Source: Methylobacter sp. (GTDB taxonomy: Bacteria > Pseudomonadota > Gammaproteobacteria > Methylococcales > Methylomonadaceae). Taken from it: 48,942 bases of DNA. This document shows positions 8,147 through 33,475 of this stretch, piece by piece. The stretch lies in NCBI GenBank assembly GCA_004299305.1, contig SCPZ01000136.1, positions 1 to 48,942 on the forward strand, read 5' to 3'. Each line of letters starts with the position of its first letter. The stretch's first letter is position 1. The notes beneath the pieces were generated by a model, which did no database searches, had not been told where the DNA came from, and worked only from the letters and a program-made list of their open reading frames with translations. The position numbers were made by a program, and so were the translations under genes.

Positions 8147-10678
8147 TTATCGATAATCCGCTATCAAATTTCCCACGTTGCCAACAAAACTACTCATAAG
8201 AAAATACTGTTCATATACTTCCCGGCCTGCTACACCAAGAGCTGCTAGTTCAGTTGGATTCTGTAGAAGAAAAACCATTTTCCCTGAAAGTTCTTCAGCA
8301 GATTCGTTAGTAAATATCAGGCCATTCTTCCTATTTTCCAATAGTTGGGCATGACCTATAGACGATGAGCACAAACACGCCTTGGAAAACATCAGTCCCT
8401 GTGTAATCACAATGGGCATTGGATCATCTCGCGAAGCTGAAACCAGCACATTGGTTTCAGCGTAAAATTCCAGCAGCTTGTCGGACGGCATATTTTCGAT
8501 ACACTCAACCTCCGGTATGAGAGCCGCCTTGGCGCTCACTTCCTTATAAAAAATAATAGATTCATGATAGGGCAACGGTGACCCAATGATGCGAAAAACG
8601 GCCTTAGCCCTTAACTCTTCAGGCAACCGCCCAATAGCATCTAAAAAAACATCTTGCCCTTTGCGGGGCTCTACTGAGCCAACAAGAGAAAATACAATTT
8701 TTCCTGATTTATGCGGGCGATTCGGTATAGCTGTGTCGCTACAACCGTAAAGCAACAGATGCAGCTTCTCCTGCGATGTATATTGCAAAGCCAAAGGGAA
8801 ACAAAGTGGGCTACCAAGCCATATAGATTCGCAGGCGGCAAATAACAACGGTAAATCGGATGTCATGTTTGCAACTGCGTTAAAACCCACATCGGTTTCA
8901 TGTATCCACCATGTCAGGTGCTTGCTTATATCTTTAAAGTAGTGAATAAAACTAAAAGAACCGAGGGATGTCACAATAACTCTTTCAAAAGTTACTACAA
9001 AATCACGGGCTTCCGATGAGTAATCTTGGCAGTCAAACAATAAGGGGTCAACAATAGTAGGAAAACCCTCTTGTTCAAATTCTTCGCGTATCGGACCCTC
9101 TTTAGGAGAAATAACTACAGGTCGTACACCATAAAGAGAAAAAAGTGCTCGCGCCAAATATAAAACAGCGTATGGAGCTCCAGTACGAGAAAAATCATGC
9201 ACGACCAGTAATATCTTAGCGTTAACCCCTAGATGCAGCACTTCACCTTTGTATGGCGTATCCGATGGCGCTGTCCAAAATTGAAACAGCTTTACGACGC
9301 GTTGCCATACAGTTGTTGACGGTTTCGCAAGATAATCACCGTTCTCGACCATTTTATCGAGTAAAATTTGCCGAGCGTTTAAGTACTGCTGACGGAGCTT
9401 TGATACTATGGGCGCAACCTTAACACGCCATGTTAAGGGGACAATTAGCCCGGCACTTAAATAGACTATTCGAGCAAAATTATGCACTGTCATCGGACGC
9501 ATTTTCAATGCGTTTCCTAATCTGTACCACTTTGACTGCTGCATACTCAAAATCTCTTGCACCCTTTTTTCCAGTTCAAGCTTTTTTTCGTCAAGTGCTT
9601 GATTCAAAAATCCTATTTCTTGATTTTTCTGGGTAATAATAGAATCTTTCGCTAAAATCACTTCATTGAGGCGAATGACCTCTTGCGCTTGGCGAGCAAT
9701 TTCTACCTTAAGGGACTGTTCTTCAAAAGCATGTTTCTGTATAACTTGTTTTTGAATAGCAAAAATTTCTTGATATAAGCTTTTTAGTTCAGGATTTTTT
9801 ATTGAGATTGATTTATCTTTAAACAAGGCCAATAACTTATGCAAGGAAATATCAAATCCCTGTACAACGCCCATTAGACCTGCATAGTTTTTAACATCCC
9901 GATTAGACGCCTCATTTTCATCCAGGTAATCGCAAGAATCCTGGTATCCAATGGGATAAATCCCCTGAATAGAGATATCGACAGCTTCCAAATTGGTCAG
10001 AAAAAGCTTCAGCGAATTCGCTGAAAAATAAACAAGATGCGAAGGAGGATGACGGTAAATCCATGCGCTCGGATCAACCAATGCATCCACTGAACGCGCA
10101 TTTGGCGTTGTGATGACGAGTTGGGTTTTTTTGCCTATCGCCCCGTGCAAAAATAATTCAAGGAATAGATCGTAAGGTTCGGGTAAATGCTCCAGCACGT
10201 CCAGCATGATAATCAGGTCAAATTCCATCTTGGGCAGATTATCGATACCTTCAACAACATGAATTTTCTCCCCATGGCGAGATAGGGCTATGTCCCGTGC
10301 ATGATCCGATAATTCAACGCCCCATGCTTCCCATCCTTGTTCAGAGGCTAATGCCAGATGCGTCCCGAAAGCGCAGCCAATATCCAATATTTTTTTTCCT
10401 GCGACATTCGGAATGGTTAAAATAAAATCGCGAAACAGCGGTATTGCAGCGTCTGTGGTTGAGTCGTAATCGGCGTAACTCCCTGTGCTATCGCTATGGA
10501 AATAACTTTCGCCATCGTAATAAGCTTTAAGGGTTTGCTTATCCGGCATCGGCCAGACAAAATCACACGCACAAGTTCCGCAGCGTAATATTTCGTAGCC
10601 ATTGGATTTGCATAATGACAAGGCTGTAGTCCCCGAACAAACAGGACAACTCGATTTGTTTTGACTGGTTATTTTCAT
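8147..10678 (-). CDS. Fusion protein: zinc-ribbon methyltransferase, coiled coil, GT4 glycosyltransferase
   Basis: This 843-residue cytoplasmic protein joins two activities. Residues 11-36 form a small zinc ribbon (CPVC at 11-14, CGTC at 33-36). A class I SAM methyltransferase follows, with motif I KILDIGCAFGTHLA near residue 95 and MLDVLEHLPEP near 157. Residues ~315-385 are charged heptads likely to form a coiled coil. From about 470 comes a GT-B glycosyltransferase with FSLVGSVEPRKGQDVFLDA and a later VSASRDDPMPIVITQG donor-binding segment. Comparable fusions are known where methylation caps polysaccharide chains and the coiled coil measures length, as in WbdD. Applying that role here is inference. 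The start is an ATG read at 10678. Confidence 0.85.
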   Translation of the reverse strand: MKITSQNKSSCPVCSGTTALSLCKSNGYEILRCGTCACDFVWPMPDKQTLKAYYDGESYFHSDSTGSYADYDSTTDAAIPLFRDFILTIPNVAGKKILDIGCAFGTHLALASEQGWEAWGVELSDHARDIALSRHGEKIHVVEGIDNLPKMEFDLIIMLDVLEHLPEPYDLFLELFLHGAIGKKTQLVITTPNARSVDALVDPSAWIYRHPPSHLVYFSANSLKLFLTNLEAVDISIQGIYPIGYQDSCDYLDENEASNRDVKNYAGLMGVVQGFDISLHKLLALFKDKSISIKNPELKSLYQEIFAIQKQVIQKHAFEEQSLKVEIARQAQEVIRLNEVILAKDSIITQKNQEIGFLNQALDEKKLELEKRVQEILSMQQSKWYRLGNALKMRPMTVHNFARIVYLSAGLIVPLTWRVKVAPIVSKLRQQYLNARQILLDKMVENGDYLAKPSTTVWQRVVKLFQFWTAPSDTPYKGEVLHLGVNAKILLVVHDFSRTGAPYAVLYLARALFSLYGVRPVVISPKEGPIREEFEQEGFPTIVDPLLFDCQDYSSEARDFVVTFERVIVTSLGSFSFIHYFKDISKHLTWWIHETDVGFNAVANMTSDLPLLFAACESIWLGSPLCFPLALQYTSQEKLHLLLYGCSDTAIPNRPHKSGKIVFSLVGSVEPRKGQDVFLDAIGRLPEELRAKAVFRIIGSPLPYHESIIFYKEVSAKAALIPEVECIENMPSDKLLEFYAETNVLVSASRDDPMPIVITQGLMFSKACLCSSSIGHAQLLENRKNGLIFTNESAEELSGKMVFLLQNPTELAALGVAGREVYEQYFLMSSFVGNVGNLIADYR

Positions 10679-31234: not shown

Positions 31235-31402
31235 TGTTCGCAGGTTCCCAAGCTCCAGCTCTCATCTTCATACACATCCTGCAACCTCCCACCTGTTCAG
31301 AACGTTGCAAGTTAGACCTTCCAGGTTTTAAAAACCTGGAAGGTCCGCCATCGGCATGTTTCTCGCAGGGTTCAAATATAGTGGCGTCGTCAAAACGTTT
31401 AA
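31235..31402. repeat. Intergenic repeats after moaE
   Basis: The first part (31235-31280, with TTCCCAAGCTCCAGCTCTC) resembles 48780-48812 near the right end of the window. A 29-base palindrome at 31316-31344 (ACCTTCCAGGTTTT with its complement) follows but lacks a T run. No gene is seen. Confidence 0.6.
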
Positions 31403-31781
31403 GACGGGGTTACAAACCCATACGCGCCAACTTAACATCCATAATATGCCGATTTATAGAGCAAGCCGTCATGTCGGCAGGGCTTACCACCTAGCACTTT
31501 GTTTAAATAGCACGTCATACCGGCATGGACTGCCGGTATCCAGAACACATGGATGTGATCTAAGGAATGAGCACGAAATAACTTAGGCAAGTTGCCAATA
31601 GTCGGAGTGCAGGCTTTGCCTGCATGCGCAAGCAAAGCTTGCACTCCTGCCGCACACAGTTGTCCACTTTATTTCATACTCGTTCCTAAGCTTGCCATCC
31701 CTGGCTTCTGGATCCCGGCAATCCCTGCCGGAATGACGATGTTTTTCCTTAAGTTGGCGCGTATGGGTTACAAACCCCGTC
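31403..31781. mobile_element. Four-level nested inverted-repeat element
   Basis: Outer arms CCCATACGCGCCAACTTAA (31417-31435) and the exact complement (31749-31767) are extended by GACGGGG and CCCCGTC. Within them are arms CGTCATACCGGC...CCAG (31513-31543) and CTGGATCCCGGC...ATGACG (31708-31738). Within those lies a 125-bp copy of the AGGAATGAGC element (31563-31687). At the centre is a GGAGTGCAGGC hairpin (31604-31647). Each level has its own arms, as if four elements inserted in turn. There is no coding capacity. Confidence 0.78.
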
Positions 31782-31812
31782 TCGTATGAGGGGGTTAAGC
31801 AAATAACAAAAA

Positions 31813-32325
31813 TCACTGTCCGCTACGCACTAACCGAACATAGAGATTGTGGTTCTTAGCGCCCCAATAGTCGTTACCATAGTGGAAGTAGACGATCCAC
31901 GCGTAGATATTATAGTTAGCAATCGGCGAGGAAGACCAAAAACTATCGCCGGTTGCATTGGGAAACGCCGTTAGATTTATTGCAGGATCATAACAGCGAC
32001 TTTCAACTAAGGATTGCAGCTCTTTTAGATTAGGCAAACGCCAATCATTTTTTCCTGCAAACACCGCGCTTTCAGCGCTTTGTAAGGCGCTTGGCCAGTT
32101 GTAAGGTTGTGCGGAACCGGTGCAGACGCCGTTATGCCATGTTTGCCCCAATGAGCAACGCATCCAGGTTAAAACGGTTTTATTATCAAGCACCGTGCCA
32201 TCCGCGTTCACGGTGTAACGGCTGTCCGGCGCATCGGCAATAATATGGGGATTACAGGTTTGGGCGACACTTACCTGTGCATGGATTAATAGACAAAAAT
32301 ACAGGCTTAGCTTAAGTCGTTTCAT
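31813..32325 (-). CDS. Secreted DUF1566 (Lcl C-terminal) protein with a putative DGR variable region
   Basis: The 170-residue protein starts at the ATG read at 32325, with a signal peptide (KLSLYFCLLIHAQVSVAQ). It is almost only a DUF1566 domain: TVLDNKTVLTWMRCSLGQTW, NDWRLPNLKELQSLVESRCYDP, FWSSSP, AWIVYF and a YVRLVRSGQ end. DUF1566 has a C-type-lectin-like ligand-binding fold and is found in secreted proteins and in some targets of diversity-generating retroelements. The last 43 codons (31813-31941) match the neighbouring gene without a gap but differ almost only at codon positions 1 and 2. A hairpin (AACCCC...GGGGTT, about 31773-31796) lies just past the stop. Its ligand is unknown. Confidence 0.8.
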   Translation of the reverse strand: MKRLKLSLYFCLLIHAQVSVAQTCNPHIIADAPDSRYTVNADGTVLDNKTVLTWMRCSLGQTWHNGVCTGSAQPYNWPSALQSAESAVFAGKNDWRLPNLKELQSLVESRCYDPAINLTAFPNATGDSFWSSSPIANYNIYAWIVYFHYGNDYWGAKNHNLYVRLVRSGQ

Positions 32326-32392
32326 AAAATATCCTCCGAAGGACAAAAATTAAAGGGCGCGATGGATTTAGGAAGTTAAGCAAATAACAAAA

Positions 32393-33424
32393 TCACTGTC
32401 CGCTACGCACTAACCGGACATAATCACCGTAGTCCTTACCGTCCAAACCGCCGCCACCATCGTAGAAATAGACGATCCAAGCGCTGCTACTATCGTAAGC
32501 AAGCGAGGAGGAAGACCAAAACCGAGCGTTTTTTACAGTGTTTGGGAAATATCTCGTGTTAATGGCTGGCTTATAACGGCTGTAATCAACAATCGAATGT
32601 AGCTCTGCTTGTCTAGGTATTCGCCAGTCCTTATAACCACACCAACCCGCCGCATTCACGGCTTTGACGTATGCATCGGTATCGCAGGCGCTGGTACTGC
32701 CGCAAGAACCGCCATTTTGTGCGCCCACATTACCGCCGTTTTTGCTGTTGTCGGGTTCATACCAGCTATAACGCCAATTTTTATCGTGTAAACCGTTGTC
32801 ATCGGTTTTTACTTCCCACATCAACCCGGTCACGTTGTCTTTGACACAGTTCCAAGTCTTGGCATTTGCCGCTAATGCCGCACCGGTACTACTGATTTTA
32901 GTGAAGTCAAACCCGGCATGGCCGTTGCTGTTATTACTTTTTGCAATATCTCGCCCTGATTCGGCATCCTGATTGGGATAACCGTCTACAGGACAAGGCA
33001 GCTTATTGTTAGCGCCGTCTGAACAGGTGGTAATACCGGTGTCGTTAAGGCCGTAGGCTTTGTTGGGGATGGGAATGGCATCGATAGTCGCGCTGATCTC
33101 CAGTGTATCCACGCTATTCTCAGCTAAAACACGAAAATAGTATTTTTTGCCGTTGGTCAACTTGCCAATTACAAGCCTTGTTTTAGTTATATCTTGCCAT
33201 GTACCATCTGCGTAATTCAGGCAATTGTTAATATCGCTAATGGTCTCTGTGGCATAACAAACGCCGTAATTCGTTGCACTGGTTAACCTGCCCCATTGCA
33301 AGGTGACTTGTTGATCGCCGGTAGTCGCTTTAAGCGCTAAGGCCGCAACAGACGTGATCGGGTAACTCAGCGAAAAGAATAGTAAAACGGCGTAACTCAA
33401 TGCGCGAACGGGATGTTTAAACAT
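32393..33424 (-). CDS. Secreted fibronectin-III plus DUF1566 protein with a putative DGR variable region
   Basis: From the ATG read at 33424 the protein has 343 residues. It has a signal peptide to about residue 28, then a fibronectin type III-like domain (~30-120; KATTGDQQVTLQWGRLTSATNYGVCY ... GKKYYFRVLAENS). A full DUF1566 domain (~140-343) follows, with DNVTGLMWEVKTDDNGLHD, DWRIPRQAELHSIVDYSRYKP, FWSSSS, AWIVYF and YVRLVRSGQ. The last 129 coding bases (32393-32521) and about 18 bases past the stop match the downstream gene in the manner described there. It lies just upstream of the shorter gene on the same strand. An ATG at 33439 is an alternative start. The role is probably extracellular binding. 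Confidence 0.82.
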   Translation of the reverse strand: MFKHPVRALSYAVLLFFSLSYPITSVAALALKATTGDQQVTLQWGRLTSATNYGVCYATETISDINNCLNYADGTWQDITKTRLVIGKLTNGKKYYFRVLAENSVDTLEISATIDAIPIPNKAYGLNDTGITTCSDGANNKLPCPVDGYPNQDAESGRDIAKSNNSNGHAGFDFTKISSTGAALAANAKTWNCVKDNVTGLMWEVKTDDNGLHDKNWRYSWYEPDNSKNGGNVGAQNGGSCGSTSACDTDAYVKAVNAAGWCGYKDWRIPRQAELHSIVDYSRYKPAINTRYFPNTVKNARFWSSSSLAYDSSSAWIVYFYDGGGGLDGKDYGDYVRLVRSGQ

Positions 33425-33475
33425 GTTGGGCTGCCTCATTATTTTGTAGTGGACACGTAGCGCTTTTGACCGCAC

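Follow-up and report, generated by a model that had tools for sequence, protein, structure and literature searches.

Do the two tandem genes on the minus strand of this Methylobacter contig carry the mark of a diversity-generating retroelement (DGR), and, if they do, where is the machinery that made it? The window, that is, the whole stretch of 48,942 nucleotides analyzed, is contig C15 of a 144-contig, 4.49 Mb assembly with an estimated completeness of 99.99%. A long gene (P0002) is followed on the same strand by a short one (P0001), with 67 bp between them as measured from the likely ATG, while the open frames extend over 32393-33475 for P0002 (360 aa, reaching a GTG at 33475) and over 31813-32346 for P0001 (177 aa, reaching a TTG at 32346). 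Both genes match the Pfam family PF07603, Lcl_C, with E-values of 3.8e-36 and 5.4e-31, and we take this to be the family formerly named DUF1566. The closest named records to the P0002 protein were those of a Methylovulum MAG, of Methylococcaceae and Methylococcales MAGs, and of Crenothrix, which points to a gammaproteobacterial methanotroph as the probable host. The coordinates of all features are collected in Table 1.

Table 1. Features of the two target genes in the window, with the loci of a related genome that retain pieces of the core
Feature	Position	Strand	Remark
Short target gene P0001, Lcl_C domain	31813..32325	-	ATG ending at 32325
Variable repeat 1 (VR1), stop codon included	31813..31941	-	Adenine-site tests against relatives' templates
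Long target gene P0002, Lcl_C domain	32393..33439	-	ATG ending at 33439
Variable repeat 2 (VR2), stop codon included	32393..32521	-	Adenine-site tests against relatives' templates
VR1 end signal in target form (GGACAGTGA) with conserved tail past the stop	31789..31836	-	
VR2 end signal in target form (GGACAGTGA) with conserved tail past the stop	32370..32416	-	
Spacer of 67 bp separating the two targets	32326..32392	-	Site of Avd, template and reverse transcriptase in relatives' complete cassettes
Avd and reverse transcriptase stubs between two target genes, G057	L097 7266-7603 and L099 3711-3915		

The likeness of the two gene ends extends about 23 nt past the stop codons (31789-31811 against 32370-32392, 91%). 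The end signal has the target form GGACAGTGA in both window copies, where the templates of relatives have GGAGAG or GGAGCG, with one class-G156 template departing from this wording; both window ends carry, at their 3′ end, the conserved target-form signal of a DGR target. The products are probably secreted, as judged by eye, and the lectin-like fold that the earlier note had placed at their C-termini might be expected from the Pfam Lcl_C match and from PMC6642488; the fold model of the window protein is poor (pLDDT 52.8), and a sequence search of the PDB gave no solved relative. In addition, a MITE-like 34-nt inverted repeat (91%) flanking 313 nt was observed at 31402-31782 of the window, ending 30 bp past the P0001 stop, and its 14-base end occurs, among the compared loci, only in the window and in loci overlapping it.

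The substitutions between the two gene ends bear on the first part of the question. The last 43 codons align without a gap, and our recount of the figures in the earlier note gave the same values, namely 29 differences in 129 bases, with 24 at codon positions 1 or 2 and five at position 3 (13, 11 and 5 by position). The roughly two thirds of differing third positions that it had described upstream were also recovered (21 of 30 just upstream), and over 60 codons the number is 44 of 60, against 5 of 42 in the gene ends (p = 4e-10). Four templates of related methanotrophs (G183, G014, G156 and G029), which give gapless 129-nt alignments with VR1 and VR2, were used as stand-ins, an adenine site being one where two or more of them have A. 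VR1 and VR2 differ at 21 of the 44 template-adenine sites and at eight of the 85 other sites (p = 2e-6), and the contrast was maintained at codon positions 1 and 2 alone (21/41 against 3/45) and with each template taken singly (p from 2e-6 to 2e-5), so that, with the relatives' templates as stand-ins, the differences are concentrated at template adenines, as in a DGR target. The adenines deduced in the earlier note from the window letters proved to be adenines in the homologous templates of relatives, whose Lcl_C homologues are DGR targets by template/target comparison. Its description of codons derived from AAC or AAT was equally borne out, with 15 of the 17 codons that are AAC or AAT in two or more of these templates differing at positions 1 or 2, and 14 of these 15 keeping the third base, which changed in one; only four of the remaining 26 codons differ at positions 1 or 2 (p = 3e-6).

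Against the single templates, VR1 gave p-values of 0.0009 to 0.04, with 0.04 for G014 and G029, and VR2 gave 2e-5 to 3e-4. The closest template, that of G183, has 10 and 13 non-A mismatches of 86 to the two window ends, and none of the four can therefore be the true template. The target pairs of G107 and of a Methylovulum record (L140) exhibit an adenine-site pattern like that of the window. A G158 sequence first read as a template (test p = 4e-4) has an end of the target type and more likely represents a target. Overall, the letters of these loci support the view that the footprint in the window gene ends is that of a DGR, an interpretation that applies to the past of the two genes and not to their present.

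The second part of the question was addressed in the window's own genome. The whole assembly gave zero matches to PF00078 (RVT_1) at E ≤ 0.001 and no homologue of a relative's DGR reverse transcriptase (RT) at E ≤ 1e-10, a DNA search for the template at E ≤ 1 returned just the two window genes, and a repeat-pair scan, which accepts copies differing at A with at most three other mismatches per 90 nt, gave no such pair within the window. Avd is a usual but not universal accessory protein of DGRs; it was not found in the window's genome by a search that was positive in four of nine genomes (G014, G183, G156 and G057), and the 67-bp spacer has no Avd or RT remnant by tblastn (E ≤ 1) or blastn (E ≤ 0.1). 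None of the parts of a complete DGR, whether RT, matching template or Avd, was hence detected in the assembly. The proposal in the earlier note of an element acting in trans is thus not supported for this genome at present, and the lack of RT and template counts against its reading as worded; what stands is that the comparison with relatives nonetheless identifies the window pattern as that of a DGR, and that past action in trans is plausible, a coreless pair being present in the Methylovulum record too although the ends were rewritten after the two copies parted. A viral carrier was sought in viral_contigs with two queries, the RT of a relative and P0001; these scans, whose reach is close relatives only, gave no relative, and among the RTs of phage and plasmid records (118 and 1029 records) every best place was below 60% identity.

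Matches to RVT_1 were obtained in 18 of the 23 genomes of the genus, with the DGR motif pattern present in four of the loci drawn from those 18 genomes. A GLPIGN..SQ-type motif, which we assume to mark a DGR-type RT, was used for this purpose; the pattern skipped partial matches, and its absence from short RT matches (e.g., G057:C234) says little. Among the 201 genomes of the family, VR1 is matched at the DNA level in 21, and 34 match the DGR RT of the relative (E ≤ 1e-10), in some cases weakly. Six of the 21 VR-matching genomes (G014, G024, G156, G177, G183 and G191) have an RT match and 15 do not, with 15 being an upper bound for orphans because this number includes incomplete genomes and genomes whose match is confined to the conserved last 25-30 bases. 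No DGR-type RT was found to go with the footprint pairs of the window, of G107 and of G057, the last having a partial RT match that might or might not be of the DGR type. The repeat-pair scan detected A-differing pairs in five of 36 sources, and then, with more loci, in 35 of 108, several overlapping one place. No paper on DGRs in bacterial methanotrophs was among the matches listed from the open-access literature.

Over 117 nt, the G183 template and its target have no non-A and 17 A mismatches, and likewise for a target on another contig. The G156 template shows 0/16 and 0/17 non-A/A mismatches to its targets and 1/16 to a target on another contig, and the values in G014 and G029 are 1/15 and 0/15, respectively. 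One template explains targets on two contigs in both G183 and G156, and, judged by sequence, trans action occurs in this methanotroph DGR family. Avd matches NF033474 (E = 3.6e-11) and PF22296 (E = 1e-7), both under the curated cut-offs of the families.

The complete cassettes (G156, G024, G120 and G183:C153) are arranged on one strand as long target, Avd, template, RT and short target. The same element order was observed in G029, with the frame of its long target left unassigned, and the G014 locus looks complete, with an RT frame interrupted near the contig end. The window pair is ordered and oriented like the targets of these cassettes, minus the core. Coreless pairs, with targets 22 to 75 bp apart, were found in the window, L140, G107, G173 and L144, the spacing in G173 and L144 being taken to the open frame and not to a chosen ATG. 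G057 harbors two intermediate loci. In one, the stretch that separates the targets keeps 56 aa of Avd (87.5%) and, from the 3′ end of the RT, 41 bp (83%, E = 0.002); the other has weaker traces of both. These stubs are scars of core deletion, so target pairs of this family do lose the core that lay between them; as the window spacer maintains no trace of a core, a deletion there is something that we infer.

The window and L140 pairs, both coreless, share 79.7% DNA identity over 1741 bp. At codon positions 1 and 2 they differ at 23/41 and 19/41 adenine sites, against 30/200 and 34/200 upstream, and third positions differ at 14/84 in the ends against 66/200 upstream (p = 0.003). Since the ends differ more at adenine sites and less at third positions, they were rewritten after the two pairs parted, either by a DGR located away from the pair in one genome or in both, or by cores that were afterwards lost independently. 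Between paired ends, the third-position differences (of 42) are five in the window, four in L140, one in G107 and 0 to 3 in G057, with RT-bearing genomes having 0-1 (G183, G156 and G120) or six (G024). We read the five of the window as ageing since the last renewal, on a clock that is loose because RT-bearing G024 has six, RT-less G107 one and G057 0 to 3.

Our best explanation, which we hold to be probable, takes the window ends to be DGR variable repeats, diversified earlier, perhaps in trans, and now frozen, the machinery of that DGR being absent from the assembled genome. A DGR of the relatives' family would have used a template of about 115-130 bp, and its adenine-mutagenised cDNA would have been copied into the two genes, at least in part in trans. 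The two proteins, both probably secreted, would thereby have been altered at the same set of residues. Afterwards, the machinery would have been lost, or the pair would have arrived in this genome without it, and the ends would have aged slowly after the last renewal, to 5/42 third positions.

A special case, in which the machinery was left behind and not lost, is that the pair was transferred horizontally, already diversified in a Methylovulum-like donor, and that no DGR was met in this lineage; it is a serious candidate, which we place a little short of an even chance. The pair is 79.7% identical to L140, which may lie outside g24, and the moaC/moaE-region DNA is 68-77% identical to that of five g24 genomes, the comparison covering the pair for L140 and the moa region for the g24 genomes. 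No Lcl_C relative lies beside moaE in 22 congeners (up to 1.5 kb covered), and together with the identity contrast this would favour transfer over loss; however, a related locus that looks complete is present in G014, which belongs to the same genus, so loss within the genus is also possible. We regard as quite unlikely a DGR that is present and acts in trans, with its RT and template in an assembly gap or on an unassembled replicon. The 144 contigs and the single templates serving two contigs in G183 and G156 speak for it, but the estimated completeness of 99.99% yielded no RT, template or Avd, and the window has more third-position differences than RT-bearing G183, G156 and G120. A further account is that of ordinary paralogues with 3′ ends homogenised by gene conversion and binding residues then changed under positive selection. 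Conversion would reduce third-position divergence too, and surface residues often change fast, but the changes fall at template-adenine sites even within codon positions 1 and 2 and the third base is retained in nearly all changed AAC/AAT codons, which makes this account highly improbable.

It is conceivable, though rather doubtful, that coreless pairs of a long and a short Lcl_C gene serve as portable hypervariable modules, which would move between methanotroph lineages without machinery, keep the homing signal and be re-diversified in trans by any related DGR of the host, or else, in hosts that have none, be kept as fixed binding repertoires.

According to PMC6642488, DUF1566 is the most common Pfam domain among DGR target genes, and the DUF1566-target DGRs described there are like the window pair in target domain, C-terminal variable repeat and several targets per element; they were found through RT and template, whereas the assembly of the window's genome has neither. 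Thiohalocapsa PB-PSB1, as described in PMC10907252, similarly has targets at loci without intact machinery, some of them matching a remote template, and MITE-like repeats near the loci, but it retains other complete DGRs and the window's genome shows none. The methanotroph cassettes (G183, G014, G156 and G029) share with the window homologous targets, a similar end signal and templates alignable gapless over 129 nt, but they keep the Avd, template and RT that the window pair lacks. The pair behaves like a DGR target, or was one in the past, and is not itself a DGR. Less usual is that footprint-bearing targets were found without machinery inside a graded series of core loss, from complete cassette through scarred G057 and the fresh orphan of G107 to the ageing orphan of the window, which makes testable how long hypervariable proteins persist after mutator loss. 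DGR targets are recognisable, and their history partly readable, in an RT-less genome, and RT-first surveys would miss such targets; the survey in PMC8144416 would, by its own statement, overlook targets distant from the RT.

The window's genome contains 12 further Lcl_C domains. A second long-short Lcl_C pair was found on contig C25, with open frames 1969-2625 and 857-2026. Over 90 nt, its short gene differs from the G183:C153 template at 18/31 adenine sites and 4/59 others (p = 2e-7), and from the G120 template at 18/31 and 10/59, while the long gene has an indel in its end. As this footprint appears against another template class, two DGR classes seem to be represented by orphan targets in the genome. 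The ends of a third long-short pair on contig C9 (7363-8190 and about 8404-8775) have no likeness left to any end signal found in the compared loci, and this pair is perhaps an older orphan. The Lcl_C genes on C24, C37, C42 and C47 were rejected as targets; they lie inside longer frames ending in unrelated sequence. G031, in which no RT match was found, carries six Lcl_C genes in a row (L105 5708-11730) with a target-like end signal and differing end length and backbone, and these are perhaps older orphans as well.

Three loci of relatives depart from the usual anatomy. In G183 (L092 1211-2239) the RT start is duplicated, and the gene between the copies resembles, by eye, a REP-associated transposase. 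In G177 (L106 2320-5499) a 1060-aa open frame ends in an apparent template-form end (GGAGAGTGG) and looks like a long target as if fused to its template. In G156 (L101 3869-6223) the long DGR target combines a caspase domain (PF00656), PKD domains and Lcl_C.
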